Below, in pieces: positions 1 to 52,996 of a stretch of 52,996 nt of DNA. Source of the stretch: Williamsia sp. CHRR-6. Its GTDB lineage: Bacteria > Actinomycetota > Actinomycetes > Mycobacteriales > Mycobacteriaceae. Below the pieces are notes generated by a model, which was not told the origin of the DNA, ran no database searches, and saw only the letters and a program-made list of their open reading frames with translations. Location: contig NZ_JAHCSG010000009.1 of NCBI RefSeq assembly GCF_018474015.1, positions 1 to 52,996 of the forward strand, written 5' to 3'. The translations under genes were made by a program, and so were the position numbers. The first letter of the stretch is position 1. The number at the start of each line of letters is the position of its first letter.

Positions 1-127
1 GGCGATCCCCTGCCGAAACGGATGCGACACCCGCCAGACCGGGAACCGACGCGACTGGCGTACACGCTTCAACGTCGCCGTCTCCTCGGTCGGCGGCGCG
101 TCGAGCTCGTCGAGCACCTGCAACTCC
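1..127. repeat. Terminal direct repeat, copy at left end
   Basis: Bases 1-127 are identical to 52870-52996. An exact overlap of this length at the two ends of a contig is what a k-mer assembler leaves on a circular molecule. The repeat lies inside the toxin gene that spans the junction, and joining the ends restores one continuous reading frame, which supports circularity over a genuine biological repeat. Confidence 0.95.
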
Positions 128-302: not shown

Positions 303-565
303 GCTGCGCACCCCGAATCGGAGCTCCCTGCGGTCGCACAGTGACCCCGGCCTAGCGGCCGGGGCGGGGATCTTGTTTCGTCCTTCTGGCCGTCCGATTG
401 TGACCGGCGTCGTCCGCCGCACAACCCCGCGACACTGTCGTGCCCTTCGGGTCGAGAAACTCTCAACCCGGCTGCGCCTGAGACTTTCTCGCTCGCGGGG
501 TTGTGCTCTGTCCTCCTGTGCCGGTCTTCATCTCCCTTGCCAGAAGGGCAAAAAAATTGGCGGAC
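303..565 (+). repeat. Large imperfect-hairpin element, copy 1 (before ardC)
   Basis: One of three related non-coding elements (others at 2035-2291 and 48284-48522), all on the plus strand just before a gene. Conserved parts in order: a GGAGCTCC-containing box (about 319-338), a local hairpin (CCCCGGCC 345-352 with GGCCGGGG 357-364), then nested stems P1 (CCTTCTGGC 382-390 / GCCAGAAGG 539-547), P2 (GACCGGC 402-408 / GCCGGTC 520-526), P3 (14 bp, 419-432 / 493-506) and P4 (454-464 / 480-490). The P1-P2 internal loop is 11 nt on one side and 12 nt on the other in every copy and is almost invariant. P3 and P4 differ in sequence between copies but still pair. It could act as RNA or as folded single-stranded DNA. 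Confidence 0.85.
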
Positions 566-584: not shown

Positions 585-1559
585 ATGGGTACACGTCGCG
601 CACGCACAAGCAAGACCGCCGAGCAGGCAGCCGCCGAGCGTCGCGAGCGGGCCGAGCAGATGCAGGCCCAGATCGCCGCACAGGTCCAGACGATGGCCGA
701 GTCAATCGGCTGGCGTGAATGGCTCGACTACCTCGCGAACTTCCACAGCTACAGCCTGCGCAACATTCTGCTGATCGCCGCCCAGCGCCCCGACGCGACC
801 CAGGTCGCCGGATTCCGCACCTGGCAGTCCCTCGGACGACAGGTCCGCAAGGGCGAGAAAGCAATCCGCATCTTCGGGTTCAGCTCGAAGAAAGTCACCG
901 AGACCGACCCCGCCACCGGCGACGAGACCGAGACCCGCATCCCCCGGTTCCCCATCCTGAGCGTGTTCGACATCGCCCAAACCGACCCCATCGACGGGAC
1001 CGAGGACCGCACCGTCACCGAGCCCGGCGACATCGTCACCCACGTCCACGGCGACGACGAAACCGGCATCTACGACCGGGTCGCCGCCTTCATCACCGCC
1101 CAAGGGTGGACCATCACACGCGAGCAGATCCCCGGCACGACGAACGGATACACCCGCGTAGACGGCACCAAGCTGATCGTCGTCGACGCCGACCTCGCAC
1201 CCGCCCAAGCAGCGAAAACGATGATCCACGAGACTGCCCACGCCATGCTGCTGCACGCCGACACCGACGGCCACCGCGTCGACACCCTCGACATCGAGCA
1301 GCACCGAGGCATCCGCGAGGTCGAAGCCGAATCCGTCGCCTATGTCGTCGCCGCCCTCTGCGGACTGGACACCAGCGCCTACAGCGTCGGCTACATCACC
1401 GGATGGGCCGACGGCGACCCCGAGATCGTCACCGCCACCGCAACCCGAGTCCTCGCGTGCGTCCACACCATCGCCGACGCCCTACACCCGCAAAGCGAGG
1501 ACCACGACGACACCGACGACCAGGACGACACCGACGCCCACACCGCCGACGCAGCCTGA
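585..1559 (+). CDS. ardC: ArdC-like antirestriction protein
   Basis: A 324-residue protein with the ArdC layout: an N-terminal single-stranded-DNA-binding domain (about 25-130, with the signature around GWREWLDYLANFHSYSLRN and FRTWQSLGRQVRKGEKAI) followed by a zincin-type metallopeptidase-like domain. HETAH at 215-219 supplies two zinc ligands and the catalytic Glu; the acidic stretch REVEAES near 244-250 probably supplies the third ligand. ArdC of plasmid pSA protects incoming single-stranded plasmid DNA from host restriction and is a typical leading-region gene. The tail after about 310 is Asp-rich and low complexity. ATG 585 is preceded by GGGAGG at 568-573. The gene lies directly behind hairpin element copy 1, which may control it. 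Confidence 0.88.
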   Translation: MGTRRARTSKTAEQAAAERRERAEQMQAQIAAQVQTMAESIGWREWLDYLANFHSYSLRNILLIAAQRPDATQVAGFRTWQSLGRQVRKGEKAIRIFGFSSKKVTETDPATGDETETRIPRFPILSVFDIAQTDPIDGTEDRTVTEPGDIVTHVHGDDETGIYDRVAAFITAQGWTITREQIPGTTNGYTRVDGTKLIVVDADLAPAQAAKTMIHETAHAMLLHADTDGHRVDTLDIEQHRGIREVEAESVAYVVAALCGLDTSAYSVGYITGWADGDPEIVTATATRVLACVHTIADALHPQSEDHDDTDDQDDTDAHTADAA

Positions 1560-2034: not shown

Positions 2035-2291
2035 GCTGCGCACCCCGGATCGGAGCTCCCTGCCGGTCGCACTGCCGAAAAGCGTTGTTGCTTTTCCCTT
2101 CTGGCCGTCCGATTGTGACCGGCGTCGTCCTGCACACAACAGCGCGTCCGCGGCCTCCGGCGGGACCGACACCACTTTCCACACCCGCACTCGGCTGCGC
2201 CTCGCGTGGAAACTGCCGCCGCTCCCCTGTTGTGCTCCGTCCTCCTGGCCGGTCTTTATCTCCCCTGCCAGAAGGGCAAAAAAGTTGGCGG
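2035..2291 (+). repeat. Large imperfect-hairpin element, copy 2
   Basis: Second copy of the three-copy element. Stems: local hairpin AAAAGC (2078-2083) / GCTTTT (2090-2095); P1 CCCTTCTGGC (2096-2105) / GCCAGAAGGG (2267-2276); P2 GACCGGC (2117-2123) / GCCGGTC (2248-2254); P3 CACAACAG (2135-2142) / CTGTTGTG (2227-2234). P4 pairs TTTCCAC with GTGGAAA. The P1-P2 loop reads CGTCCGATTGT on the 5' side and TTTATCTCCCCT on the 3' side, like the other copies. The downstream gene starts 18 bp after the element. Confidence 0.85.
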
Positions 2292-4846: not shown

Positions 4847-5032
4847 ATGGCCACCACCACACGCACTGACGATCAGATCCTCGCCGCCGTCGATGCCGGC
4901 CACGAGATGGCTGGCATGGTGGCCACCGACGCAGATCGAGCCGCCGCTCTGCGCGTGCTGCACGGTGAGACCACTCCCGAGCAGGAAGCTGCTGCGGTCC
5001 TCGCTGAAATCCGGTCACGCCACTCTCAGTGA
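4847..5032 (+). CDS. VbhA-like antitoxin of Fic toxin
   Basis: A 61-residue protein in the position and size of VbhA-type class I Fic antitoxins, small helical proteins that bind the Fic domain and push a Glu from the motif [ST]xxxE[GN] into its ATP site. The C-terminal half (LRVLHGETTPEQEAAAVLAEI) matches the conserved GE-[IL]T-x-E-[EQ] segment. The expected inhibitory motif should fall in AGHEMAG (residues 17-23), where the Glu position appears to be Ala. ATG 4847 has GGAAGAGG upstream; TTG 4844 is a weaker choice. The stop overlaps the fic GTG by 4 bp (GTGA... arrangement), so the two are co-translated. Confidence 0.75.
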   Translation: MATTTRTDDQILAAVDAGHEMAGMVATDADRAAALRVLHGETTPEQEAAAVLAEIRSRHSQ

Positions 5033-5871
5033 CCACGTCCTCATCATCCGGTGACGAGGCCGGGCAGGTTCCCGATAACCTGCCCGGCCTCTTGTCTGTC
5101 ACCGATCTTGAGGTGTTCGAGCGTCGCATGGCCTATGTCCGGGTGGCCGAGCTTGAACACGATCCCGCGATCGCCGACGGCGACTTCACGTTTGAGACCC
5201 TCCGCGAGATCCACGGATGGATTCTGCAAGACGTCTACCCATGGGCGGGGCAGCTGCGCACTACCGACACCCAGGCGATGGGGATGGCGCACTGTCGGCC
5301 GGCGTTCCTGGCCGACGAGCTGCATCGGGTGTTCGGCGGCATCACCACCGACCGTCCCTCCCACGTCGACCGGGAATCGGCGATCGCCACGACCGCCCAC
5401 CATTGGGGTGAGCTGACCGGGGTCCACCCGTTCGTCGATGGGAACTCGAGAACCCAGCGGGTGTTCTTCCACCGCTACCTCGCCGACGCGCGGTGGGACA
5501 TCGACTGGCGCGTCGTCGACGCCGCCGCGGTGCACGCAGCCCGCCACGTCGCGATGGCCACCACGGACTCATCGTTTCTCGCCGCCGAGCTCGCACCCGG
5601 GGTGGTGCGCTTGGGCGACACCGCGCCGGGGTCCCTGGCCGCCACCCAAGACACCCGAGATCCCGCGAGAGCGGTCGCGGTGTTCCGGGCGATGATGATG
5701 CACCGCCGGGCCGGGGGAACCGCGGAGACATTCAGAGCGCAGGCCGCGGCCGCAGGTCCGATGGCCGGCCCGTCCGGACAGGCCGCCCCCTCGCCGCCCT
5801 ACCGGGGGCGCAGCGAGCAGAGCACATCGGCACCGTCGCGGCCGGATCGGCCGCGCGGCCGGGGCCGCTAG
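5029..5871 (+). CDS. fic: Fic-domain protein (AMP transferase toxin)
   Basis: A 280-residue protein with an N-terminal Fic domain (about 20-200). The active-site loop is HPFVDGNSRTQR at 133-144, with His, Asp, Asn and Arg of the HPFx[DE]GNxR consensus intact; the usual GNGR is GNSR. The upstream flap region (YPWAGQLRTTD) is also typical. Fic proteins transfer AMP to hydroxyl side chains, for example on topoisomerases by VbhT and FicT, stopping growth. The C-terminal 80 residues are Ala/Pro/Arg-rich and probably disordered; there is no BID secretion domain. GTG 5029 overlaps the antitoxin stop. Confidence 0.88.
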   Translation: MTTSSSSGDEAGQVPDNLPGLLSVTDLEVFERRMAYVRVAELEHDPAIADGDFTFETLREIHGWILQDVYPWAGQLRTTDTQAMGMAHCRPAFLADELHRVFGGITTDRPSHVDRESAIATTAHHWGELTGVHPFVDGNSRTQRVFFHRYLADARWDIDWRVVDAAAVHAARHVAMATTDSSFLAAELAPGVVRLGDTAPGSLAATQDTRDPARAVAVFRAMMMHRRAGGTAETFRAQAAAAGPMAGPSGQAAPSPPYRGRSEQSTSAPSRPDRPRGRGR

Positions 5872-10369: not shown

Positions 10370-10517
10370 GGGGTTGCCGCGCATCGGCGAGCGATTCCGC
10401 CGGCCGGGTAGCCGGGTGTGCGACAGCGGGAACCCCCCGCCGTCCTAAGCATTGTTGGTGGTGACCGCCGGAAAATCTGCCGGTTCCCTCTCAGGCGAAT
10501 GCGCCGGAGCAAGATAT

Positions 10518-10546
10518 GCCAAAACCCAGGGGTTTTGGCTTGCGCC
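10518..10546. other. Candidate origin of transfer (oriT hairpin)
   Basis: A perfect 9-bp inverted repeat, GCCAAAACC (10518-10526) and GGTTTTGGC (10531-10539) around CAGG, lies 140 bp before mobC in the only sizeable non-coding gap of the mobilisation region. Relaxases bind such a repeat and nick just 3' of it. Read on the plus strand the hairpin is followed by TTGCGCC, like the TGCGCC of IncQ nic sites. Read on the minus strand it is followed by ATATCTTGC, close to the ATCCTGC-type nic of MOBP plasmids. The relaxase looks MOBP-like, favouring the minus strand. The nick strand is not settled. Confidence 0.6.
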
Positions 10547-10687: not shown

Positions 10688-11128
10688 ATGGCGACACGGT
10701 CGGCGCGGGGGCACCGCGCCCATGTGTCGGGTGCGCCGCGTACCCGTCGTGAGGTGTGGCTCTCGACTGAGGAGCGCACGGTGATCACCGCCGCGGCGGC
10801 GCAGGCGGGGTTGCGGCCGGGGGCCTACATTGCCCGGGAGGCGGTGCGCGCCGCGCGCGCGGACACCGCCGCTCGCAGCGACTCCCCCACTGCTGAGGCC
10901 GCACCGGCGGCCGGTGTCACTGTCTCCGGTGCCCGGGAAGTTCTCGACGAGGTGCGTCACCTACGCCGGCTGATGGGCAACGTCGCTGGCAACCTCAACG
11001 ACGTCGCCCGGCACGCCAACTCGACCGGCGAGCTGGTCGAGCAATCGGGGGCGATTCTGGATTTCGTGCGCCGCACCAACGAGCGCGTCGACGCCGAGTT
11101 GATGGCGATCCTGCGGAGGCTGCGGTGA
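10688..11128 (+). CDS. mobC: MobC-like relaxosome accessory protein
   Basis: A 146-residue basic protein. The N-terminal part (RREVWLSTEERTVITAAAAQAGL...YIAREAV) is a ribbon-helix-helix-like DNA-binding pattern, and residues about 90-110 (LRRLMGNVAGNLNDVARHAN) carry the GNLNQ[IV]A-type signature of Pfam MobC. MobC proteins bind oriT, help open the strand and assist the relaxase. ATG 10688 has GGAGAGGGACGG upstream. The stop overlaps the relaxase start (GTGA), as usual for mobC-relaxase pairs. Confidence 0.85.
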   Translation: MATRSARGHRAHVSGAPRTRREVWLSTEERTVITAAAAQAGLRPGAYIAREAVRAARADTAARSDSPTAEAAPAAGVTVSGAREVLDEVRHLRRLMGNVAGNLNDVARHANSTGELVEQSGAILDFVRRTNERVDAELMAILRRLR

Positions 11129-12771
11129 TCGGCAAGGTGGATCGCGGGTGGGATGCGCCCGGCCTGGTGTCGTATCTGATGGGTCCGGGCAAGCACAACG
11201 AGCACACCCGGCCGACGGTCATCGCGTCGTGGCAGAACGATCCGGGCGCGTTGCAGCCGTCGATGATCGGCGACGGCGATTTCGATTTCGATCCCGCCGA
11301 GCTGGCCGCGTTGCGCGCCCATGTCCACGCCCCGGCCGAGGCGGTCGGGTTGCCGCGCCGCCAGCCGGCCGAAGGCGAACCGGGCTTCACCAAGCACGGC
11401 TATGTGTGGCATACCTCGATCGCGATTCCCGCGGCTGACGGCGCTCTCGCCCAGGAGACGTGGGCGCAGATCGCCCGCGACGTGATGGAGCGGACGGGTA
11501 TCGCCGCGGCCGACGATCCGGGCGGGTGCCGGTGGATCGCGGTGCACCACGGGCGTAGCGCTGAGGGCAACGACCACATTCACATCGCGGCCACCCTGGT
11601 TCGCCAGGACACCGGGGCCCGGGTGCACCCCCGCAACGACTACCGCACCCTGCGATCGGTGATGCGGGAGTGGGAAGACCGTCTCGGGTTGACCGTCACC
11701 GCGCAGAACGCCCGCGACGCCGACCGGCCCGCGGCGCGCGGGGAGTTCGAGAAGGCCGCACGCCGCGCCGCCGACCCCGATGCGTTCGTCGCCTCACGCA
11801 CCGATCCGACAGAGACGATCCGCGGGCAGCTCCGCCAGGCCGTTGCCGACACCGCGGCCACGGCTAACGACACCGAAGAGTTCCTCGCCGGTCTGCGCAC
11901 CCGCGGTCTGCTGGTGCACCTGCATCACGATCGGGCCGGAGCGGTCGACGGGTATGCCGTGGCGTTGCCCGGTGACCGCAACCGGCAGGGCCGACCGGTG
12001 TTCTACGGCGGCGGGAAGCTCGCCCGGGACCTGTCGTGGCCGAAGGTGTCTGCGGAGTTCGCCCGCCACGGCGGTGTGGTCGCCGACCGTCCCGCCGAGC
12101 GGAGTTGGGATCTCGGGGTGACCCGCCTCGACGGTGCCCGCGAGGTCGTCACCCGCGCCCATCGGGCGTTCGCCCGCCAGCCGTATGCCGCCCAACGCGA
12201 TATCGCTGTGGCCGCGCACCGCATGGTCGCCACCTACGCCAAGGTAACCGCCGGCAATCCCGGGCCGAACGGGACACCCGATCAGACCGGGCCGCGTATC
12301 CAGTCGGTGTGGACCGGTCACCGATCGGCGCGGGCGGCGCGCATGGCCGCACATGCCCTCCACGACACCGGTCGCCCGCTGGCCGGGATCGCCGCCGACC
12401 TCAACGCCGCATCCCGCAACCTCCTCGCGCTCGGCGCACTCGGTGAGGGCGGCCCGGCGAAGACCGCGAGCGTCGCGCTCGCCGTCGCCCTGGCCGAGCT
12501 GGTGACCGAGATCGCCGCGTGGCATGACCGCACCGGCTCCCCCGCCGGCGGCACCGCGGCCCGCAAGAGCGTCAGTGCTCTGCGCACCCACACCGGGTGG
12601 GTCACCCAGTCCACCGCGGCGGCCACGCCCGCGACGTCGACGGCGACCCGTGATCCGCACCGCGCGGCGCACGCGTTGTCGCGGCGGCCACGTGGGGCAC
12701 CCCGAACCGATCCACCCACCCGACGCATCCCGCCCCCTCCCCCCGGACCGCAGACAGGACCTCGACGATGA
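11125..12771 (+). CDS. Relaxase (MOBP-type mobilisation nuclease)
   Basis: A 548-residue protein. The N-terminal 170 residues form the relaxase domain: candidate nucleophile Tyr17 in APGLVSYLMGPGK and the metal-binding motif III in VHHGRSAEGNDHIHIAATLV (His141/142, His151, His153). It nicks oriT, stays bound to the 5' end and pilots the strand through the secretion channel. The remaining 370 residues (RTGLLVHLHHD..., LPGDRNRQGRPVFYGGGKLARDL) match the C-terminal extension common in actinobacterial relaxases; the last 50 residues are Pro/Arg-rich. GTG 11125 overlaps mobC. I call the family from motif spacing; MOBQ cannot be fully excluded. Confidence 0.88.
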   Translation: MIGKVDRGWDAPGLVSYLMGPGKHNEHTRPTVIASWQNDPGALQPSMIGDGDFDFDPAELAALRAHVHAPAEAVGLPRRQPAEGEPGFTKHGYVWHTSIAIPAADGALAQETWAQIARDVMERTGIAAADDPGGCRWIAVHHGRSAEGNDHIHIAATLVRQDTGARVHPRNDYRTLRSVMREWEDRLGLTVTAQNARDADRPAARGEFEKAARRAADPDAFVASRTDPTETIRGQLRQAVADTAATANDTEEFLAGLRTRGLLVHLHHDRAGAVDGYAVALPGDRNRQGRPVFYGGGKLARDLSWPKVSAEFARHGGVVADRPAERSWDLGVTRLDGAREVVTRAHRAFARQPYAAQRDIAVAAHRMVATYAKVTAGNPGPNGTPDQTGPRIQSVWTGHRSARAARMAAHALHDTGRPLAGIAADLNAASRNLLALGALGEGGPAKTASVALAVALAELVTEIAAWHDRTGSPAGGTAARKSVSALRTHTGWVTQSTAAATPATSTATRDPHRAAHALSRRPRGAPRTDPPTRRIPPPPPGPQTGPRR

Positions 12772-16000: not shown

Positions 16001-17461
16001 TCACTCGGCGTATATCCGCGGCAGCCGTTCGTTCCACAGCCGGACCGCATTCCGATAGCGCTCACTCTGCTCTGCGGCAGTGGCCAGCTGGTCGGGTGTA
16101 ACCCCGGCCTCAAGAAGCAGCCGGAACGTCAGCACCCAGCGGAGTGATTGAGTCAACGCGTACACCTCGAGAATGTCGGGTGCCGCCCCTGCATCGTCTT
16201 CGCCAAGACCATGCGCCGCGGCGACTCGCTGCGCTCGAACAGCTTCTTTCCACCGGCCGATCTTCCCCACCGCGGAGGGCACCGCTGCGGCAACAGGTTC
16301 GGCGAGCTGTTTGAGTCGTTGTGGGTAGGACTCCTCAGCCCACCAGCCCTGCAATGCCTCAATCAGGCTGTCTTTGACCGCATCGTCGACCTGCGATTCT
16401 CGAAGTGCTTCGGTTGCTTGAGCGATCTGTCCGTCCGAGAATCGAGTCGCAGCCGGATACAGCCGACGGTGGAGCATTTCCGCGACGGTGGCCAGGGTCA
16501 GTGCCTCGGTGTCGATGGTGGTGAACTCATCGCTCCATGCCGCCGCGAGGATCTGCGGCACGGGGGTAACACGCTGCGCCAGTTCCAGCCAGCGCGGCAG
16601 GAATTCGTCGCCGAGCACGCTTCGGTAGAGCAGTAAGTCGCCGGCGCTCTCCGGTGCGTCCGTCGCCACCTGATAGCCGAAGACCTCCACACGAACGTCG
16701 TCGTTCTTCACCTCCACGCGTCGAACCGAGCTCTCGGCCCCCGACAGCAAGGTCATCAGGGTCGCGATCGGCGTAGCTAGCCGATGAAGCGCGTCGGGCA
16801 GGGTGGGGGCGGTATCAACCGTGATGACCGCGGTTGTGTTCGTCGATACGCGAAAGCCGCCGAACTCCGGGGGCGACATGGTCGCCTGCGGCACCAACCG
16901 CAGCTGTCCTGGCTGGTCGACCAGGGCTGCAGTGGGGGAATCTGGAAGATCCAGCGTCCAAGACCGAGGCCCCTTCCCGTCGAGCGGCATGGTCTGCGAT
17001 GTGGTGCTTATGCCCGCCCATTCGTGAAGGTTGGTCACGTTGACGCGCACCTCGCCGAACGTTGTCCCTGGGTCCGCGACGTGGTCCCCGACGAGGCACC
17101 AGTCGGTACGCATCACCTGGTTCCCTGGGGCGTCCTGTCCGGGCAAAGAGAATCCGACAGACCGCCGGCGGGTCGTATTCACTCCCCATAGCGTGACTTG
17201 GTTCGGATTGACCGCCAGCGACCCCAGGACGACTGATTCAGCCGGCTCGTCTACGTGGCTCCCCACCAAACCATTGCCGTCCGGCTGCTCGACCCACTTG
17301 ATTGTCGGAGTGAACCCGGGGCTGACTTCCAGTACGGCGCGATCGTCGGTGAACCGGAGGATCCCTGTTCGCACGGGACTCAGCGGATCGCCGGCAGCAT
17401 CGACCATCTGAAACTGGCCGATGGACTCGGGTGTCGGATCTGGGAACCGCTCAAACGCCAT
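16001..17461 (-). CDS. ApeA-like HEPN-domain protein, candidate phage defence
   Basis: A 486-residue protein with the two-part layout of ApeA-type abortive-infection proteins. Residues about 20-330 are beta-rich, with the recurring hallmarks TGILRFTDDRAVLEV, ESVVLGSLAVNPNQVTLWG and FGEVRVNVTNLHEWAG of ApeA N-terminal domain 1. Residues about 340-486 are helical; RVAAAH (Arg412, His417) fits the HEPN R-x4-H ribonuclease motif, although the residue after Arg is Val, not the common Asn. HEPN nucleases cut RNA (often tRNA) when a phage is sensed. It stands alone between a pseudogene and the transfer locus; no clear ribosome-binding site precedes ATG 17461. Confidence 0.7.
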   Translation of the reverse strand: MAFERFPDPTPESIGQFQMVDAAGDPLSPVRTGILRFTDDRAVLEVSPGFTPTIKWVEQPDGNGLVGSHVDEPAESVVLGSLAVNPNQVTLWGVNTTRRRSVGFSLPGQDAPGNQVMRTDWCLVGDHVADPGTTFGEVRVNVTNLHEWAGISTTSQTMPLDGKGPRSWTLDLPDSPTAALVDQPGQLRLVPQATMSPPEFGGFRVSTNTTAVITVDTAPTLPDALHRLATPIATLMTLLSGAESSVRRVEVKNDDVRVEVFGYQVATDAPESAGDLLLYRSVLGDEFLPRWLELAQRVTPVPQILAAAWSDEFTTIDTEALTLATVAEMLHRRLYPAATRFSDGQIAQATEALRESQVDDAVKDSLIEALQGWWAEESYPQRLKQLAEPVAAAVPSAVGKIGRWKEAVRAQRVAAAHGLGEDDAGAAPDILEVYALTQSLRWVLTFRLLLEAGVTPDQLATAAEQSERYRNAVRLWNERLPRIYAE

Positions 17462-18672: not shown

Positions 18673-20427
18673 TTAGACCGCGCTGAGACGGTGGCGTAGA
18701 CGCGCACCGAGCGGGTTGTCGTCGCCGAGTTCCCGGATCGCGGTGTCGCGCACCGTCGCGGTGTACTCGCGGGCGTGCTTGGTGATCGCCGCGGCGTTGT
18801 CGGTCTCGCGGTACCACGGCAGCAGGTCGAGCAGGACCGGTCGCGAGCCCTGGCGAATCAGTAGGGCGTGGTTGCGGCTCAGGCCGGCGACCTCTTCCAG
18901 TGGCAGGATCGGTTCGCGGACCTGGCTGCGGTTCTTCGTTTTTCCGCCCGGTCCGATGCTCAGCGATTCTTTCCACACTTCGTGGGTGCCGACGAGGTCG
19001 CTCACCATGCGGGCGTCGTCGACGTTCTGTAGACCGGCACCGATGATGCGGCAGGTCGACGCACCCCACATCGCGGCCATGCCCTCACGGCCCCACACGC
19101 CCATGCCTTGCTGGTAGGACTGCAAGATCACGTCCACGAGAATGCCTTTCGAGCCCAGGTGCGACGCCTTGGCGGGCAGGTCGGGGATGCGGCAGATGTT
19201 CGCGGCCTCGTCGAGGACGATCACCGGTTCCGGGCTGATGCGCCCACCCGACGCCGACGCTGCGAGGTCGCCGAGCTTGAAGATCTGATCAACCATCGCT
19301 GCGACCACCGGGCCGGAGGACTCCGCCCCCTCCTGGGTCATGAGATACAGCGTCGGTGCGTCCTTCTCCTCCGGGGCGAACAGGGTCCACAGGTCCAGTT
19401 CGGGGATCTCGCGGGTGGGTGGGGTCTCCCACGTTGACGGTGGGGTGACCCAGCACAGGTCTGACTCGTCTTGCAGCGATTCCAGGGCCGCCGATGCGCC
19501 ACCCTGGATGCCGCCCAACGTTTCCTGCGGGAGTCCCCACTGGGCTTCCAGGGCGCGGGCGTGGCGGTGTAGGCCGTGATCGCGCAGCAGCTCCACCGGT
19601 TCGGCGGAGTATCCGTCGATCCACTCGATGACCTCGCGCATCGACCGGCCCGCGACGGCGGCCGCGAGCAGGGTCCGAGACAGCATCTGCTTGGACGAGG
19701 AGTCGAAGAACCCGGAGTTACCGCCGTCGGAGTTGTTGGTGCCGACCGCGGCCATGAAGTGGGTGGCCACCCGCTTGGCCGATTTGTAGTCGACGACGGC
19801 GGACAGGATGTTCCACCACCACATCTGGTCGACGAACGCGATCCGGCCCGGGTCGTAGGCGTAGATCGGCCCGACCTCTTTGCGCAGCGCGGCGGTCAAG
19901 ATCCACAGGTCCGGCTTGTTCGAGGTGGCTACCACTGCGCCGCGGGCGGCGAGGATGCGTGGAACCGCCTGTGAGCTGGTCTTGTTCGATCGCGGCCCCA
20001 TGATGATGAGGGTGAAGTCCTCGAGGGTTTTGTAGACCCGCTGCCCACCTTTGGTGGTGCCCTGGCGGCGGACGACGCCGATGGCCATCGCGACGTCCTC
20101 GGCGGTGAGCCCTGAGCGGGCCGGATCGTCGTCGCTGAGGCCGCGTAGCTCTGCGCCCTTGTCGATCGCCCCGGCACCCATGACGTCGCCGAGGTCACTG
20201 GCGTCGCGCAGCTTGCGGTCGGCAGGGCTCTGTAACCACCACGAGCGCGTCGCATACGCCACCACTGCAGTGGCGATGAGGACCACGACGACCACGGTGA
20301 CGGGAAGCCAGGTCGGCCATCCCAGCATGTTGTGGCCGATGATCGCGGCACCGATTGCGGTGATGACCGCCAGGCCGACGAAACCTATGGCTTGCATCTG
20401 TTTGTCGGCGGCCTGGTTGTTGCTCAT
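18673..20427 (-). CDS. virD4: VirD4-type coupling protein
   Basis: A 584-residue inner-membrane ATPase with two N-terminal membrane segments (about 12-32 and 41-62) and a large cytoplasmic RecA-like domain. The Walker A region is MGPRSNKTSS (about 143-152), with Asn where a Gly usually precedes the Lys, a variant also seen in other actinobacterial VirD4 proteins; Walker B is PVIVLDEAANI. The sequence GSKGILVDVILQSYQQ is also typical. Coupling proteins connect the relaxase-DNA complex to the secretion channel and drive export. ATG 20427 overlaps the previous gene by 4 bp. Confidence 0.92.
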   Translation of the reverse strand: MSNNQAADKQMQAIGFVGLAVITAIGAAIIGHNMLGWPTWLPVTVVVVVLIATAVVAYATRSWWLQSPADRKLRDASDLGDVMGAGAIDKGAELRGLSDDDPARSGLTAEDVAMAIGVVRRQGTTKGGQRVYKTLEDFTLIIMGPRSNKTSSQAVPRILAARGAVVATSNKPDLWILTAALRKEVGPIYAYDPGRIAFVDQMWWWNILSAVVDYKSAKRVATHFMAAVGTNNSDGGNSGFFDSSSKQMLSRTLLAAAVAGRSMREVIEWIDGYSAEPVELLRDHGLHRHARALEAQWGLPQETLGGIQGGASAALESLQDESDLCWVTPPSTWETPPTREIPELDLWTLFAPEEKDAPTLYLMTQEGAESSGPVVAAMVDQIFKLGDLAASASGGRISPEPVIVLDEAANICRIPDLPAKASHLGSKGILVDVILQSYQQGMGVWGREGMAAMWGASTCRIIGAGLQNVDDARMVSDLVGTHEVWKESLSIGPGGKTKNRSQVREPILPLEEVAGLSRNHALLIRQGSRPVLLDLLPWYRETDNAAAITKHAREYTATVRDTAIRELGDDNPLGARLRHRLSAV

Positions 20428-29355: not shown

Positions 29356-30020
29356 CGGGTCACCACCCCACACCCGTGTCGGCCGTCGTCAGTGACCGAC
29401 CAGCCCGCGCCGTCGCGGGTCATCGTCACCACAACAACCGGATGCCGATCCGGTAGCGGTGTGTCAGCGATGAAACTCTGGGTCACCGCGATCACCCGCA
29501 CTGCAACAGTGGCGGTGTCGGCGGGACGTTCCTCGCTTCCGATTGCCGCGCGGGTCTGTGCCCGGGCATGGACGCGGGCCAGCGCCGTCCAGTCCGCGTC
29601 AGGTGACCCGGTCGGGGGTGTCGCGGTGATTCGCTGCGCACACCGCCGGGTCATCAATCCAGTCGCCCGGACCGCCGCATCGAACGGGCTGCGGTCGGTG
29701 ATGGTGTTCCACCCCAACCAGATTCGCGCCGCAGCCACGCCCACCGACGATGGATCGGCACGGTCGACAGTCACACCGGGAGGCAATGTCGAAGGCACCG
29801 GCGGTGGGGTTGGGAACGTTGCTGATCGTCCCGGCCACGCCTGCACCGACGGGGCAGTGACCGGTGGCAACGACACCGTCGCCGCCGCAGATCGATCCTC
29901 CCGGCCACCACCAGTGGAGCTGCTCGAGCAGCCGGCGAGTGCGGTCAGAAGTACCGCCACACCCAGCGTGGCACACACCAAGCGTGTGTGGGTGCTGTCA
30001 CGAACCGAATCGACGAACAT
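29352..30020 (-). CDS. Transfer lipoprotein
   Basis: A 222-residue lipoprotein precursor. The N-terminus has a hydrophobic stretch and lipobox LTALAGC at about residues 29-35, then a Ser/Gly/Pro-rich linker (to about 85) and a globular domain (ARIWLGWNTITDRSPFDAAVRATGLMTRRCAQ...) of the NTF2/VirB8-like outside-domain kind. It would be anchored to the outer face of the plasma membrane. ATG 30020 lies inside the end of the preceding gene (23-bp overlap), behind GAGAGGAG. Confidence 0.75.
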   Translation of the reverse strand: MFVDSVRDSTHTRLVCATLGVAVLLTALAGCSSSSTGGGREDRSAAATVSLPPVTAPSVQAWPGRSATFPTPPPVPSTLPPGVTVDRADPSSVGVAAARIWLGWNTITDRSPFDAAVRATGLMTRRCAQRITATPPTGSPDADWTALARVHARAQTRAAIGSEERPADTATVAVRVIAVTQSFIADTPLPDRHPVVVVTMTRDGAGWSVTDDGRHGCGVVTR

Positions 30021-31062
30021 ACATCTCCTCTCCGTTCCACCCCGACAACGGCATGATCGACACTGTCTGTCCGGACTGTGGGGCGTTGAGCAGCATGTCG
30101 ACACCGTTTTGTGTGCCGTAGTAGATGCCGACGTGGTGGGTGTTTCCCCCACTGCCGAAATAGATTTCATCGCCCGGGGCCTTCTGGTCGAACGGAATGT
30201 CCTTGCCCCGCGGGTCATACAGTTGACCCGGATTGGACCGGTCACCGGTGTAGTGCGGCAGGATGATCGCACCGGCGGTGGCCTGGGCGATCGCGTAGAG
30301 AGTCAGGCCCGAGCAGTCGAACCCGGTCACCCCCACATCCGGTGCTGACCCCGGGGACGGGCCGTCTTTGGTTCCCCCAGCCCACGCGTAGGGGGTGCCT
30401 AACCACCGCAACGCCGCCTGAATGATCTTGCGGTTAACTGGACCCGACAGGCGGGTGTTCCCGCCGCCGGCGTACACGGCCGCATACTTCGGGATCAGCC
30501 GTCTGATTTTCGGTGCATACGACTCGGTCTCGCCGTTGTTGATGATCGGTCCACCGTTGGCCAACACGCAGCCATAGCCGCAGTTGTAGGCGGCCAAGAC
30601 AATATCGAGGAGATCACCCTTGATACGGCCCGACGCGATATCTGCGCGGGCCTGCGCGGCAGTCGCACAGTCAAAGTTGGCCTGCGCCAGAATCGCATCC
30701 GGAGGATCGAACGGCGAGACCGCGCCGTTGTGGTTGGCGTCCTGCCCGTACGACGGCCACGTGTACGGCATGAACTGCGACAGCCCCTGCGCCCCCGCCG
30801 GTGACACCGCCGCAGGATTCCAGCCCGACTCCACCTCGATCTGTGCAGCGATCACCGGCGCAGAAATGTCGGAGCACACTTTCCCCGCCTTGATGACCCA
30901 CGGCTCGAATTCCGGTGGGACAGTACCGGTTTTCAGACCAGCCTGAGACGGTGCCACACCCTCATCAGACGGCTTGTTAAACGGTGCAGCGATGACCGTC
31001 ACGATGATCACCGGGACCAGGAACACAATTCCCAGCACCAGCGCCAGTGATGTCTTTTTCAC
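29998..31062 (-). CDS. VirB1-like wall hydrolase (transglycosylase + NlpC/P60)
   Basis: A 354-residue two-enzyme protein. After an N-terminal membrane anchor (about 5-26), residues about 60-190 are a lytic transglycosylase domain with catalytic Glu78 in AAQIEVESGWNP and the GAQGLSQFMPYTW motif. Residues about 215-350 are an NlpC/P60 peptidase with the catalytic Cys in GVTGFDCSGLTLYAI and His in NTHHVGIYYG. It would cut both glycan strands and peptide stems to open peptidoglycan for the transfer apparatus. First gene of the main leftward transfer operon. Confidence 0.9.
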   Translation of the reverse strand: MKKTSLALVLGIVFLVPVIIVTVIAAPFNKPSDEGVAPSQAGLKTGTVPPEFEPWVIKAGKVCSDISAPVIAAQIEVESGWNPAAVSPAGAQGLSQFMPYTWPSYGQDANHNGAVSPFDPPDAILAQANFDCATAAQARADIASGRIKGDLLDIVLAAYNCGYGCVLANGGPIINNGETESYAPKIRRLIPKYAAVYAGGGNTRLSGPVNRKIIQAALRWLGTPYAWAGGTKDGPSPGSAPDVGVTGFDCSGLTLYAIAQATAGAIILPHYTGDRSNPGQLYDPRGKDIPFDQKAPGDEIYFGSGGNTHHVGIYYGTQNGVDMLLNAPQSGQTVSIMPLSGWNGEEMYVRRFGS

Positions 31063-39310: not shown

Positions 39311-39572
39311 CGTTCTAACGGCACAACGGTATAACGGTTCGACACGCCAACGTCGTAACGGTAGTGATTTGACGTTCCGGCGTTAAAATGTTCCCACACT
39401 ACAACGGCACAACTTGACAACCCGACAACGGCACAATGCTAAAACATCAAGACTGCACAACGGCAGGCCATTGCAACGTTTAAGTGTTACACCGTTGAAA
39501 GGCCATTTGAGCACCGGGCGCTGCCGTCACCATCACAACGTTCCTACGTTCTGCGTTCATAACGCCAGAACG
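39311..39572. repeat. Partition site 1: AACG/CGTT tetramers on an 8-bp period
   Basis: About 18 AACG or CGTT tetramers fall in this A/T-rich non-coding stretch. Plus-strand AACG boxes start at 39317, 39325, 39333, 39349 and 39357 (all 8 bp multiples), then 39403, 39427, 39459 and 39475 (steps 24, 32, 16), then 39561 and 39569; CGTT at 39373 and 39381 are also 8 apart. A 12-mer ACAACGGCACAA occurs at 39401 and 39425. This is the organisation of ribbon-helix-helix partition sites, such as the ACTC boxes with 4-bp spacers of ParG. It may overlap the replication origin, since it follows rep. Confidence 0.8.
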
Positions 39573-44285: not shown

Positions 44286-44528
44286 ATGAACTTCCAACAC
44301 AAGAGTGTCCACATCGTCAGAATCGTCGATGTGACAGCCGCGGGTGACACACATGTCTGGTACGTCGGCCCCTACGGTCACAGTGACGCCACCCAGGCCG
44401 CGCGGTCCCTCGAGGTGGCGGCCGCTCACAACACGGACCGTGAATGTGTCGTCGAGGCACTGTTCTCCAACAGCGAATGCCTCCGAGTTGTCGGCGGTGA
44501 CCGCGTCACGCTCGGATCGCTGCAATGA
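44286..44528 (+). CDS. Small hypothetical protein
   Basis: An 80-residue protein (MNFQHKSVHIVRIVDVTAAGDTHVWYVGP...) with AGGAAAAG before ATG 44286, 31 bp after tetR. It has a beta-rich first half and a helix (ATQAARSLEVAAAHN). No family recognised; it converges with the endonuclease remnant. Confidence 0.6.
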   Translation: MNFQHKSVHIVRIVDVTAAGDTHVWYVGPYGHSDATQAARSLEVAAAHNTDRECVVEALFSNSECLRVVGGDRVTLGSLQ

Positions 44529-44590
44529 CCACGGGCAGCACACGACGCGGGGAAACGACCAGCGTTTACGGACGGGTTTACCGCCGCCGG

Positions 44591-45432
44591 TCAGAGCAGT
44601 CGGCGGATTCGTGCTGCCTCGGCGATGTCTTCGCGGAACTGATCGAGGGTGGCCAGGGTGTACATGCCGTCGATCTGTTCGGTCGCCCACAGTGTGTGGA
44701 TGCGGCCGAGGTCGGCCTTTCGTGACTTCCAGCCGATCCCGTCGATGACGGCGATGACGAACTGGCGGGGGAGCCGAACCTCCGCCATTTCCACGATTTC
44801 GCGGACGGCGTCGGCCAGCTTGCTGCCGGTGGAGTCAAAGCCCTTCGCAGCGACGACGATTGCGGCGTCGTCGCTGTCGGGGATGACCAGGTCGCAGGGC
44901 GCGGTACGCCCGTTGCGTCCAGTGAACCGGGTCCGCGTCCTGTAGGTCAGGCCCAGATCTACGGCGATGGCCTCAATCCCGTCTTCGACCTTGCGGCCCG
45001 AGGCTCCGGCCCGAGCGGCGGTGACGCGGGTCCCGGCGCGGGCGACGAGCACGTCACCGAACCCGTACTGGCGGCCGACTTGCACGGTGAGGGATCGCAG
45101 GAGATCAAAATCCCGGTCGAGCCAGCCGATGAGAGCGGACGGTTCGCGCAGGGCGAGGGTTTTCGCCCCGGAGGTGTCGAAGGCGTCTCGCATGGCGTTC
45201 TTGAGCTTCTCCTGCGAGAGGCCAACGACGAGGCCGAGGACGGGCACCGAGTCGGGGTGTGTCTGGACCCATGTCGCGACTGTGGCCACGTCGAACTGGG
45301 GGGGAGGAGCGCAAGGGATTCGGCGGCGGTGCGGATCGCTTCTGCTTCCGGTGTCGAGGCTGTGGGGTCGACGTGGCCGGTAAGTCGCCCCAGGGTGCTG
45401 AGGTAGTCGTCGAAGGGGACCGCCGTGCTCAT
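44591..45432 (-). pseudogene. Frameshifted type II restriction endonuclease
   Basis: A gene of about 280 codons directly after a DNA adenine methylase (TGATG overlap). The first 43 codons (MSTAVPFDDYLSTLGRLTGH...) are followed by a run of seven C on the coding strand (45304-45298); one more C would restore the frame into DVATVATWVQTHPDSVPVLGL and on to 44591. The C-terminal half has the PD-(D/E)xK-like region CDLVIPDSDDAAIVVAAKGFD (given in part), with Ala where Glu is expected before Ala-Lys. A truncated product could start at GTG 45289. Either a real loss of function, a slippage-controlled gene, or a sequencing error in the C-run. Confidence 0.7.
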
Positions 45433-46490
45433 CAGTCCCGTCCGATGAACAGGTACTCGCTCACGTCTCGCCGGGTGGCGGCTGCGTGGGTGCCAAAGCT
45501 GTACTTGTGGTCGATGGCGACGGTCTCCACATGGGGTTTGACCTTGCCCAGCAGATCGACGATGCGGGTCGCGTCGGGGATCGCGTTAGAGGAGTAGGAG
45601 AGCACGATCGCCCCGGCGTCGCTGAAGTGCTCGAAGGTCCGCAGCAACGCGTCCTCGATGGTGCGTTTGTAGGCGAACGGGGTGAACTGCTTTTCGAGCT
45701 TCTTGGTCTTGGTGTCCTCCATGATGGTCACCCCGCGCCAGTACAGGCTCAGGCCTTCAAGGAAGTGATAGCGCTTGATGTAGTCGTTGTCGTCGGTCGG
45801 CGGGGCGTACGGGGGGTCGAGGTACACCAGGTCGACAGGCTCGTGGGCCAGGTCGAACACGCTGCCGGTTACCGCGCGGCTGCGGGCGCCGTTGCTGAAC
45901 ACGGTCGCGTTGTACTCAGCGACCCGTTCGCGGAAGTGTTCGCGCAGGGTCAGCCGGAGGTCTCTGCGGCCGTCTGCGTAGCGGTTAGAGTCGGTGAAGG
46001 TAAACACCCCGCGAGGCTGTTTACGCGCCGCTGAAAGCACGAGAGCGGCTATGGCGAGGTCGCGGCGGTACCCGGTCAGAAGGTCGATGTGTGACCACGC
46101 CGAATCCAGGAACGCCCGGTCGGCGGCGGTGAAGTAGAGGCCGTCGAACGTCGACTGGATGAAGTCACGGTCATCAGCCGGCGGCCCGCAGATCTGATCG
46201 ACCAGCTCGCCGTCAAGACGAACGCTGGAATTGGCGACCGTCGCGCGGGCAATGGAGCCGGGGAAGTGCAGGTAGTCGTTACTGGTGACCTGATAGCCCT
46301 GGTTTTTCAGGAGGTAGGACACCACTCCGGATCCGGAGAACGCATCGATCGCAGTGGCGCCGCCGATGTCGGCGAACGTGCGTTCCAGGTGCGGGACCAA
46401 CCGATACTTCGACCCCATGTAACGCAGACGAGGGAACTGCTGGGTGCGCGCAACGACTTGCGCCGAGGTCAGCACTGCTCGCGGGGTCAT
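45432..46490 (-). CDS. DNA adenine (N6) methyltransferase
   Basis: A 352-residue Dam-like methyltransferase. The SAM-binding motif is AIDAFSGSGVVSYLL (about 48-61; FxGxG), and the catalytic DPPY is at 225-228 in LVYLDPPYAP, the order of the D12 class. An early YMGSKYRL segment is typical of the class. It would protect the plasmid against its partner endonuclease or related host enzymes. ATG 46490 is taken as start after GGTGGG; the frame continues to 46547 without a better site. Confidence 0.88.
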   Translation of the reverse strand: MTPRAVLTSAQVVARTQQFPRLRYMGSKYRLVPHLERTFADIGGATAIDAFSGSGVVSYLLKNQGYQVTSNDYLHFPGSIARATVANSSVRLDGELVDQICGPPADDRDFIQSTFDGLYFTAADRAFLDSAWSHIDLLTGYRRDLAIAALVLSAARKQPRGVFTFTDSNRYADGRRDLRLTLREHFRERVAEYNATVFSNGARSRAVTGSVFDLAHEPVDLVYLDPPYAPPTDDNDYIKRYHFLEGLSLYWRGVTIMEDTKTKKLEKQFTPFAYKRTIEDALLRTFEHFSDAGAIVLSYSSNAIPDATRIVDLLGKVKPHVETVAIDHKYSFGTHAAATRRDVSEYLFIGRD

Positions 46491-46663
46491 GCCCACCAGC
46501 TTTCCATGACCTCGTGGCCCAGACGGACGTAACGCTGGGCGCGTCACACCGTGTTGCTGGACCTCGGACTGCCTGCGATGTTTTAGCCGGGGCCGCCGCC
46601 ACCCGTCCGCAGACCACCGATACGGTGGCGCGCCGGGAGGTACTAGGGCGGAGAACCTGGGTG

Positions 46664-48283: not shown

Positions 48284-48522
48284 ATCGGAGCTCCCTGCGG
48301 TCGCACTGGGAAAAGCATTCTTGTTTGCCCTTCTGGCCGTCCGATTTTGACCGGCGTCGTCCGCCGCACAACAGCGCGTTCGCGGCCTCCGGCGGGACCA
48401 GCACCAGTTTTCAAACCGTCCTCGCTGCGCTCGTGAAAACTGGTGCTGCTCCCCTGTTGCGCTCTGTCCTCCTATGCCGGTCTTTATCTCCCTTGCCAGA
48501 AGGGCAAAAAAATTGGCGGACA
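48284..48522 (+). repeat. Large imperfect-hairpin element, copy 3
   Basis: Third copy, 35 bp before a DUF4192 gene. Stems: P1 GCCCTTCTGGC (48327-48337) / GCCAGAAGGGC (48495-48505), 11 bp; P2 GACCGGC (48349-48355) / GCCGGTC (48476-48482); P3 GCACAACAG (48366-48374) / CTGTTGCGC (48454-48462, one mismatch); P4 14 bp perfect (48400-48413 / 48434-48447). The P1-P2 loop is again 11 nt (CGTCCGATTTT) and 12 nt (TTTATCTCCCTT). P4 here is quite different in sequence from copies 1 and 2 yet pairs perfectly. Confidence 0.87.
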
Positions 48523-48556
48523 CCGGGTCTGCCACCGTTTTCGAGGGAGCCTCACC

Positions 48557-49492
48557 ATGACCGAGCCCATCCGCATCACCACCGCCGCCGACCTCGTCGC
48601 CTCGATCCCCGCCCTGCTGGGGTTCGTCCCGACCGAGTCGATGGTGATGGTCGTCCTGCGCGGTGAGCGGGTTCTGTTCACCGCCCGCCACGACCTGGCC
48701 GCAATCACCAACGGCCACGACGCCGCCACCCTGGCCGAGACCATCGCCGCCAACGGTGCCGAGCGGGTGTTGCTCATCGGGATCAGCGCCGAGCCCAGCA
48801 TCGCCGCCCACACCGAGATGGTCGGGCACCTCGCGGGATACGCGATCGACGTCCACCGGCAGATCCACGTCAGCACGTGCGGGCACGCCACCGAGTACAT
48901 CGATTACGAAACCGGCGAGACCGGCATGACCCGCGACTACCGCGACAGTGCATACACCGCCCACACCGCCGTGGAGCACGGCCAGGCCGTCCGGGCATCG
49001 CGCAAGGACTTCGCGGCGATGTTCGCAACCACCACCGAGGCCGCGCCGGTCGACCCGCAGACCATCGACCCCGCACAGGTCGCGCGGGACATGGCGGCGG
49101 CAGTCACCGCCAACACCGACCCCGGCCCCGAGCTCGCAGCGCAGTTCGGCGCACTCATCGGGGACGTCAAGAAGCGAGACGCCATGCTTCGGCTGGGTAT
49201 CAGTCAGACCGGCACCGCCGCCGTCGTCATGGCCCGCACTGCAGCGCACCTGCGGTCACACGCCCGCGCCCGCGTGCTCGCCCTCGCGATGTACTTCTTC
49301 TACGTCGCGGGCAACGGAGCAGCAGCCGGTATCGCCGCCGCCACCGTCACCGACGAGGGACTCGAGCCGACCAGCTTCATGCAGCTACTCGACCGGTCAC
49401 TGCGGGCCGCGATGCACCCCGACGGGTTGAGTGACCTCATGCCCACCCAGGAGGACGCCAGCACCTACCTCGGCGCCCCGTTCCCGATCTGA
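48557..49492 (+). CDS. DUF4192 protein
   Basis: A 311-residue protein beginning ADLVASIPALLGFVPTESMVMVVL, the signature of DUF4192, found in many actinobacteria and their plasmids. The rest alternates helices and strands, with a helical C-terminal half (ARVLALAMYFFYVAGNGAAAGIA). Its function is unknown. It is the third gene preceded by the hairpin element, alongside ardC, so it may belong to a group expressed on plasmid entry. ATG 48557 has GAGGGAG. Confidence 0.87.
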   Translation: MTEPIRITTAADLVASIPALLGFVPTESMVMVVLRGERVLFTARHDLAAITNGHDAATLAETIAANGAERVLLIGISAEPSIAAHTEMVGHLAGYAIDVHRQIHVSTCGHATEYIDYETGETGMTRDYRDSAYTAHTAVEHGQAVRASRKDFAAMFATTTEAAPVDPQTIDPAQVARDMAAAVTANTDPGPELAAQFGALIGDVKKRDAMLRLGISQTGTAAVVMARTAAHLRSHARARVLALAMYFFYVAGNGAAAGIAAATVTDEGLEPTSFMQLLDRSLRAAMHPDGLSDLMPTQEDASTYLGAPFPI

Positions 49493-52702: not shown

Positions 52703-52996
52703 CACCGCTCACCTCTCTCGTCCTTGGTCTGCATCAACCACGCTTCCACTGCTGCGTCGGCCCGCGGCCCGACGCTGTCGTAGAACACATCACCCATCCG
52801 CGCCTTGTCGCCGGCGAACAGTGCCACCACCGCCCGGTTGTCGTCGGTGAACCACACGATCAGCCGCACGGCGATCCCCTGCCGAAACGGATGCGACACC
52901 CGCCAGACCGGGAACCGACGCGACTGGCGTACACGCTTCAACGTCGCCGTCTCCTCGGTCGGCGGCGCGTCGAGCTCGTCGAGCACCTGCAACTCC
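52702..52996 (-). CDS. Toxin of toxin/antitoxin pair, 3' part
   Basis: The C-terminal part of the 132-residue toxin whose start is at 231 in the left end of the window. This part carries the basic core (KRVRQSRRFPVWRVSHPFRQ) and strands expected of a RelE/HigB-type fold. The frame runs off the right edge and is completed by bases 128-231 after circular joining. The stop overlaps the antitoxin start. Confidence 0.75.
   Translation of the reverse strand, partial: ELQVLDELDAPPTEETATLKRVRQSRRFPVWRVSHPFRQGIAVRLIVWFTDDNRAVVALFAGDKARMGDVFYDSVGPRADAAVEAWLMQTKDERGER
52870..52996. repeat. Terminal direct repeat, copy at right end
   Basis: Identical to bases 1-127; see the left-end copy. The unique circular length is 52,869 bp. 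Confidence 0.95.

Follow-up and report, generated by a model that had tools for sequence, protein, structure and literature searches.

Three structured elements, E1, E2 and E3, stand shortly before genes in the window analysed here (the whole stretch of 52,996 nucleotides, contig C9 of a 3,998,357-bp genome in 14 contigs), and the question raised by this locus is what such elements do. An earlier note on the same DNA had read them as an actinobacterial equivalent of Frpo, firing plus-oriented genes while a transferred minus strand enters the recipient, with a cis-acting RNA element as the main alternative. Frpo1 and Frpo2 of plasmid F reportedly go back to Masai and Arai in 1997. Work in vivo, in the part of the source available, describes the stem-loop formed by the transferred strand (T-strand) of Frpo as bringing the -35 and -10 boxes together (PMC9849209), and passages of two other papers cover the same precedent (PMC7690428 and PMC11541004). 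According to the sections available, the proven single-strand promoters belong to enterobacterial plasmids and further candidates are predicted in other elements (PMC7690428, PMC9849209, PMC8708921, PMC11541004). A single-stranded-DNA promoter is expected to form a stem-loop on the T-strand, to lie in the leading region with the T-strand as template of the downstream genes, and to present a -35 and a -10 box with proper spacing. A cis-regulatory RNA leader is expected to carry its structure on the sense strand.

The elements and their family

The three elements were found where the earlier note had placed them (303-565, 2035-2291 and 48284-48522), and they align as one family along their length. 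Its structural description could also be reproduced: the internal loops keep 11 nt on the left arm (E1 391-401) and 12 nt on the right arm (E1 527-538) in all three copies, stem P3 changes its letters with pairing kept (CCCCGCGA/TCGCGGGG in E1 versus ACAG/CTGT in E2), and the announced gene distance of 18-35 bp corresponds to start codons lying 20, 18 and 35 bp past the element ends (565 to the ATG at 585 for E1, 2291 to 2309 for E2 and 48522 to 48557 for E3). The span 303-565 given to E1 takes in a left extension with a GCGCAGC box of its own (303-309). The three elements share one strand and lie within a single stretch of about 7 kb of the circular molecule described below. The hairpins of the window are 166-179 nt long, and the T-strand of E1 folds at -48.9 kcal/mol (DNA parameters). 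The features are listed below.

303-381, minus strand: left extension of E1, situated 3' to its hairpin when the T-strand is read; mini-hairpin motif GCGCAGC at 303-309; columns conserved among 102 upstream sequences
382-547, minus strand: hairpin of E1 on the T-strand; P1 382-390/539-547, P1b 402-408/520-526, P2 419-432/493-506
397-402, minus strand: -10-like hexamer CACAAT of E1 on the non-template (3') arm, then CGGA (393-396)
419-424, minus strand: -35-like hexamer TTGTGC of E1, within duplex P2, 16 nt from the -10
471-477, minus strand: d(GCGCAGC) GNA mini-hairpin motif near the apex of E1, on the T-strand
527-538, plus strand: template-side loop of E1, TTCATCTCCCTT, the promoter element proposed earlier; here taken as the template strand of the bubble
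2035-2291, minus strand: E2; P1 2097-2105/2267-2275, -10 CACAAT 2112-2117, -35 TTGTGT 2134-2139
2035-2041 and 2194-2200, minus strand: GCGCAGC motifs of E2
48284-48522, minus strand: E3; P1 48329-48337/48495-48503, -10 CAAAAT 48344-48349, -35 TTGTGC 48366-48371
48424-48430, minus strand: GCGCAGC motif of E3

No Rfam match was obtained in the window at the gathering threshold. BLAST against plasmids retrieved 63 records with E1 and 57 with E3, belonging to Rhodococcus, Prescottella and Nocardia with a short Streptomyces match as sole exception; the annotated feature beneath the listed matches is mostly 'none'. No match to E1 was found in the phage collection. A model, R1, and the alignments A2 and A3 were built from 31 elements (3 of the window and 28 of plasmids). 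R1 matches all 20 plasmid records, themselves chosen from BLAST hits, together with the window's genome, and 65 of 401 genomes of the host family (own included), spanning 12 of 31 genera; in a phylum-wide draw it matched 2 of 396 genomes, that of the window itself and a second one from the host family. The model search and BLAST have produced many further copies in other plasmids and genomes, so that a lack of such copies, named beforehand as a refutation, did not occur. Counts from the host-family search are to be taken as 'at least', with at most six candidates scored per genome and not every match listed. Rows regarded as shadows or weak (5 of 70 and 9 of 120) were dropped from the counts of exact strings, positions and gene distances, and position counts and fold energies further exclude 4 of the 83 new non-redundant elements, whose sequences were too short. 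Two groups were distinguished: sub1 (94 elements: 28 seeds and 66 new) and the diverged sub2 (13 elements).

The pairing is well supported. Standard pairs fill 97.4% of 899 cells in A3 (31 sequences) versus 31.0-44.1% with partners slid by 1-3 columns, and double changes occur at 15 of 29 pairs. A5 has 120 rows, is fitted to the model and contains a few rows that are shadows from the opposite strand; there, standard pairs fill 94.6% of 3195 cells versus 32.0-37.9%, with double changes at 25 of 29 pairs. Stem P1b, for instance, passes from GACCGGC/GCCGGTC to CGTCGGC/GCCGACG or GACCTGC/GCAGGTC. Since pairing lies far above the slid-partner controls and double changes are present, the structure of the element, as judged from these alignments, is not a product of chance.

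Some copies deserve separate mention. The Nocardia asteroides plasmid W14 carries eleven copies on one strand (95017-118462, a part of which is also found in L019 and L123); they fall within the ~26 kb that precede the relaxase on the circular map, which makes this leading region unusually dense, and a twelfth match, a weak one, merely shadows one of these copies. A decayed copy of the element's inner part (G000:C2:381086-381204; L060, L002) is 95% like E1 over 114 bp; it lacks most of the left arm and is located on a large contig directly behind what appears by eye to be the end of a transposase-like frame. At many loci a conserved left extension is present ~75 nt left of the hairpin (GAGCTCCGCTGCGCTCCG ... 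GAAAAG..TTCTTTT); its function is unknown.

Genes behind the element

The genes under the three elements of the window are the following.

585-1559, plus strand: ardC under E1; ArdcN and M78-like peptidase domain, Pfam PF08401 and PF06114
2309-2488, plus strand: 59-aa ORF under E2; no Pfam match, member of a cluster of 3 downstream ORFs
48557-49492, plus strand: DUF4192 gene under E3; Pfam PF13830, E 7.5e-33

Across the family, an ORF start lies within 160 nt downstream in 153 of 154 distinct cases, at a median distance of 39 nt (quartiles 35-42), the start codon having been chosen by a mechanical search; a Shine-Dalgarno-like run accompanies 132 of the downstream picks. These picks form 39 clusters, the largest of 30, 21 and 20 members, and represent many different proteins, the number of clusters being an upper estimate because some picks look like wrong frames. 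Cluster representatives match DUF4192, ArdC, ParB_N (below cut-off), DUF932, LPD29 and DUF2786, and four of the ten representatives, that of a 187-aa family included, match nothing.

These figures bear on the possibility that the element is mainly a single-strand initiation site, whose T-strand would recruit RNA polymerase or primase for the second-strand primer, gene expression being secondary. Frpo is described in the available passages as doing both in vitro (PMC7690428, PMC9849209), and the fold of the present element sits on the T-strand as well (see below), but a primer site requires neither the eleven copies seen on one plasmid nor a narrow distance to the start codons of so many different proteins. 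As the main role of the element, priming is considered improbable.

Strand carrying the fold

The minus strand folds more stably than the plus strand in all 31 seeds and in all 79 new elements examined. The mean energies of the seeds, minus versus plus, are -96.7 versus -79.8 with RNA parameters and -50.2 versus -41.3 kcal/mol with DNA parameters. The minus strand is rich in G, and dinucleotide shuffles account for -10.7 of the -16.8 difference (RNA) and -4.1 of the -8.9 difference (DNA), so that composition makes up about two thirds of the gap in the first case and nearly half in the second. After shuffling, every one of the 31 seeds keeps a negative gap (mean z -1.6 and -2.1), and 68 of the 79 new elements lie beyond the mononucleotide-shuffle mean, 11 failing to do so.

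Wobble pairs can be used to discriminate between strands, as an A.C cell on the plus strand is G.T on the minus strand. In A2, the nine P1 pairs, P1b and ten P2 pairs hold 53 A.C versus 1 G.T cells on the plus strand, and all 37 outer pairs of the minus-derived set give a ratio of 73 to 12 in the same direction. A pair set derived from the plus strand over the whole element is balanced (63 G.T versus 57 A.C on plus), which counts against a preference, and the test was for this reason repeated on P2, the helix holding the -35, with partners picked by Watson-Crick score alone. The T-strand wobbles then amount to 98 G.T versus 6 A.C in the 74 sub1 elements that could be placed (20 of 94 could not).

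The motif GCGNAGC provides a further measure. It is present on the minus strand in 91 of 107 non-redundant elements (14.0 expected) and on the plus strand in none of the 107 (7.1 expected); a looser form gives 102 versus 12, with 46.9 and 31.0 expected. In the upstream stretches it occurs on the T-strand in 99 of 146 and on the complement in 4 (6.2 expected), while across the entire window it is present on both strands. GNA-loop mini-hairpins with G-C pairs are very stable DNA structures according to the portion of the source available (PMC4686876). By these sequence measures the fold belongs to the minus strand, base composition explaining a part of the stability gap.

An RNA leader acting in cis within the gene's mRNA (attenuator or riboswitch) would agree with the narrow distance directly before the start codon and with a structured, covarying region. 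Its structure should nevertheless stand on the sense strand, and energies, wobbles and GCGNAGC all designate the mRNA complement as the better fold, with an energy gap that composition explains only in part. There is, moreover, no promoter-like excess upstream, and a leader would not predict an orientation tied to the relaxase gene (next section). With the fold on the strand complementary to the mRNA, this alternative is disfavoured and is judged very unlikely. A small RNA read from the minus strand, away from the gene, and resembling an open promoter as 6S RNA does would account for a minus-strand fold with an open-promoter-like bubble; its own promoter, however, would have to be accommodated in the ~40-nt gap or inside the gene, the GCGNAGC mini-hairpins are a motif of DNA stability, the distance on the gene side is narrow and Rfam offers no match at the gathering threshold. 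This reading is held to be just as doubtful as the leader.

Direction of transfer

The two ends of the contig overlap exactly over 127 bp (window 1-127 and 52870-52996), and the contig was therefore taken to be a whole plasmid, circular and 52,869 bp long, of type MOBP on the basis of its relaxase. The transfer features are listed below.

10507-10539, minus strand: predicted oriT, 5'-inverted repeat-TATCTTG^CTC; predicted nick between 10509 and 10510
10688-11128, plus strand: small ORF directly upstream of the relaxase (mobC-like position), from the ORF list; no NCBIfam match
11125-12771, plus strand: MOBP-like relaxase; PF03432 E 6.8e-11, above cut-off; NF041893 TraI_MobP below its cut-off
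18676-20427, minus strand: coupling protein
30001-31062, minus strand: lytic transglycosylase/NlpC-P60 protein

GAGCAAG followed by an inverted repeat is found upstream of the relaxase in 18 of 21 MOBP loci, with one chance-like match on the opposite strand; the letters of the inverted repeat vary among these loci and the left flank GAGCAAG is kept. The 21 loci that served to define the motif are also those on which it was counted, and some of them are near-identical. The TATCTTG^CTC of the window resembles YATCCTG^Y, which we take to be the MOBP nick consensus, and the nick position was placed by this likeness. Leftward from the predicted nick on the minus strand, E2, E1 and E3 would be met after about 8.2, 9.9 and 14.9 kb. 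Transfer of the minus strand, which had only been supposed, is thus supported by a conserved oriT-like motif that places the nick so that this strand leads towards the elements.

Several other nick assignments were discarded. The opposite reading of oriT (plus-strand TTGCGCC, right of the repeat) was set aside as the right flank is not kept across plasmids whereas the left one is. A generic scan for ATCCTGY was useless, with 12 matches versus 10.55 expected, and nothing on nicks was found in PMC9791958. In MOBF plasmids the nick could not be located, the repeat test being positive in 1 of 20, and a conserved CACACCTC block is accordingly not claimed as the MOBF nick. The polarity of these plasmids consequently rests on the relaxase gene.

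Orientation was assessed on 203 elements taken across records and genomes, 147 of which share their contig with a relaxase match of TrwC or MobA/VirD2 type. The set comprises the plasmid-record rows with E up to about 1e-10 and all listed host-family genome rows, on MOBF as well as MOBP plasmids; weaker plasmid-record rows were left out, namely two from W11, the C2 fragment and rows that merely shadow the same hairpins from the opposite strand. All 147 elements are oriented like the nearest relaxase gene on their contig (145 without the duplicate molecule W03 / G141:C2), and a spread of hits over both strands, named beforehand as a refutation, did not occur. The relaxase-bearing contigs are uniform in 63 of 65 cases, the two others carrying relaxases on both strands. 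Gene strand is generally mixed, only 15 of the 38 annotated genes of L006 being on the strand of its relaxase. In linear numbering 111 elements lie upstream and 36 downstream of the relaxase, a split without meaning for circular contigs, of which there are some. Contigs with more than one element have all of them on one strand in 52 of 55 cases, the three exceptions being due to weak copies carried by two Nocardia plasmids, of which one occurs in duplicate. These weak, shorter opposite-strand copies (L010 20890-21033 and record W13 44454-44598) are the only such cases among the contigs examined. The elements would therefore be located in the leading region, as given by the predicted nick in the window and by relaxase gene orientation elsewhere, and the T-strand would be the template of the downstream genes, a polarity predicted from the oriT motif in MOBP plasmids and inferred from relaxase gene orientation in MOBF plasmids.

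The plasmid of the window carries additional genes of interest. An ApeA-like protein (16001-17461, minus strand) with ApeA_NTD1 and HEPN_Apea domains is likely encoded by an anti-phage defence gene. A Fic/VbhT-like adenylyltransferase (5029-5868, plus strand) scores below the cut-offs of its models; on plasmid L009 a Fic gene is preceded by a VbhA-family antitoxin. A D12-class adenine DNA methyltransferase (45435-46547, minus strand) lies near E3 on the opposite strand. Repeats rich in ACAACGGCACAAC (window about 39374-39570), just 5' of a ParA-like gene (39603), resemble iterons or a partition site.

Promoter-like letters in the fold

The 3' arm of the T-strand reads TTG-N16-.A.AAT-CGGA, with the -35 in duplex and positions -11 to -1 in an open loop. 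The -35 is located within P2, -12 is paired, -11 to -1 are unpaired and the 9-bp downstream duplex P1 starts at +1; every base of CACAAT except the first lies inside the 11-nt loop 391-401 of E1, and in the three copies of the window the stretch separating -35 from -10 is paired only in part. In the 94 sub1 elements the -35 is conserved solely as TTG (T94, T88, G86), and the best-kept letters of the -10 are A-11 (93) and T-7 (94). A-11 and T-7 are the bases flipped out by sigma in open complexes. The discriminator CGGA follows the -10 (C89, G90, G85, A89), whereas at -12, where the -10 begins, T occurs in a single element of the 94 and C is the usual letter. The spacer measures 16 in 76 of the 90 sub1 elements in which it could be placed (4 of 94 could not). 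In sub2, TTG, A-11 and T-7 are kept in 13 of 13 with a spacer of 18 and different intervening letters. The full string TTG-N16-.A...TCGGA-N-GG occurs exactly in 93 of 151 distinct elements, and in 35 of the 83 new non-redundant ones.

A loose promoter pattern is present on the T-strand (left) arm of 84 of the 94 sub1 elements versus 2.3 expected, 10 failing, and on the right arm, read as duplex towards the gene, in none of the 94 versus 8.3 expected from shuffles. Restricted to the new sub1 elements, the pattern is found in 56 of 66 on the T-strand arm and in none of the 66 on the other arm. The template loop facing the -10 loop is the less conserved of the two. The proposal in the earlier note that the loop TTTATCTCCCTT is the exposed promoter element could not be maintained, since this loop lies on the template side, is the less conserved one and is accompanied by no promoter pattern towards the gene; the promoter-like letters lie in the opposite loop and stem (E1 397-402 and 419-424). 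A palindrome bound by protein, as a relaxosome, partition or repressor site that recurs ahead of leading genes, would fit multiple copies of inverted repeats near transfer genes but is the least credible reading, since a site bound as duplex predicts neither arm letters that change with pairing kept, nor loops of different conservation, nor the strong strand asymmetry.

An upstream promoter of the duplex was also searched for and rejected: TTG-N-TANNNT is found in 1 of 102 upstream sequences versus 1.8 expected. TANNNT by itself is scarce over the 150 nt upstream (10 of 102 versus 52.0 expected).

Proposed mechanism

In our judgement it is very probable that each element is a single-stranded-DNA promoter for leading-region genes, although this rests on sequence analysis without transcription data. 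The predicted T-strand stem-loop is in place, and a putative -35 and -10 are presented with proper spacing, the first base of the -10 rarely being T. The actinobacterial equivalent of Frpo put forward earlier, with a transferred minus strand and plus-oriented entry genes, is consequently supported by several sequence tests, its promoter loop being the detail that was wrong. As the promoter letters are on one arm and the template of the gene on the other, the state of the strand alone would set the direction; within duplex DNA these letters face away from the gene. With somewhat less assurance, we favour the joint proposal that the elements form a separately evolved class of single-strand promoters, widespread in the Rhodococcus-Nocardia family, in which the T-strand fold is built like an already open polymerase complex, and that transcription would run towards the gene when the DNA is single-stranded and away from it when the DNA is duplex.

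The single-strand promoter would operate as follows. In the recipient, the hairpin of the T-strand would bring its two distant arms together, and GNA mini-hairpins would probably aid folding of the strand against SSB. Host RNA polymerase with the main sigma factor is inferred to bind this pre-opened promoter and to use the other arm as template, starting near the first P1 base, at about E1 539. Transcription would then leave the hairpin at its base and continue along the single strand as template for ardC, DUF4192 and similar genes, presumably giving early and transient expression with protective genes on before the second strand is made. Synthesis of that strand would remove the fold, hence the promoter, and expression would be shut off upon duplex formation. 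In addition, the transcript may serve as primer for the second strand, a role likewise proposed for Frpo.

If this is correct, actinobacterial plasmids of soil and patient origin switch on ArdC and little-studied proteins (DUF4192, the 187-aa family and others) at entry. DUF4192, the 187-aa family and similar families would then be testable anti-defence candidates, the element serving as a marker for more, and its compact, strongly covarying fold would offer a model for the base-by-base study of open-complex geometry.

Comparison with known systems

6S RNA is an RNA acting in trans on polymerase, a folded strand that mimics an open promoter. Unlike 6S RNA, the present element has features that point to DNA and to the gene behind the bubble. 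The EGeRS1 regions of pLS20-type plasmids resemble it as repeated control regions before establishment genes of a Gram-positive plasmid, in the excerpts available (PMC8708921). The pLS20 authors argue there against a single-strand promoter on the ground that the transferred strand is the non-template strand (PMC8708921), a criterion that the actinobacterial element would pass, its predicted transferred strand being the template. The ssi sites and the single-stranded promoter of ColIb-P9 share with it a folded T-strand, a leading region and anti-restriction and anti-SOS genes, as far as the available sections go (PMC9849209, PMC7690428), and belong to a different host group. Actinobacteria and Rhodococcus are absent from the accessible main text of a leading-region survey (PMC11541004), and no report of a single-strand promoter in Actinobacteria was found in the literature as represented by titles, beginnings of abstracts and passages.

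The closest likeness is to Frpo of plasmid F, with which the element shares a leading region, a T-strand serving as template, more than one copy and a place before establishment genes. The leading region of F contains gene classes in common (ssb, ParB-like, DUF932), and, as a control, each Frpo copy was found to fold more stably on its T-strand than on the complement (without shuffles). The two differ in size, Frpo1 and Frpo2 being a repeat of 473 bp versus hairpins of 166-179 nt in the window, in the 11/12-nt open loop with the -10 found in the actinobacterial element, and in GCGNAGC, which is absent from both Frpo copies. By pattern, the promoter boxes of Frpo gave no TANNNT match in the fold computed here and loose ones only, which were not used. 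R1 did not recognise Frpo in the leading region of F (best E 0.016), and a search of the E. coli genome collection with E1 returned nothing; the two are regarded as the same kind of element and not as the same family. The best reading of these sequence comparisons is that the actinobacterial element would work like Frpo by anatomy, without a detectable kinship of sequence.
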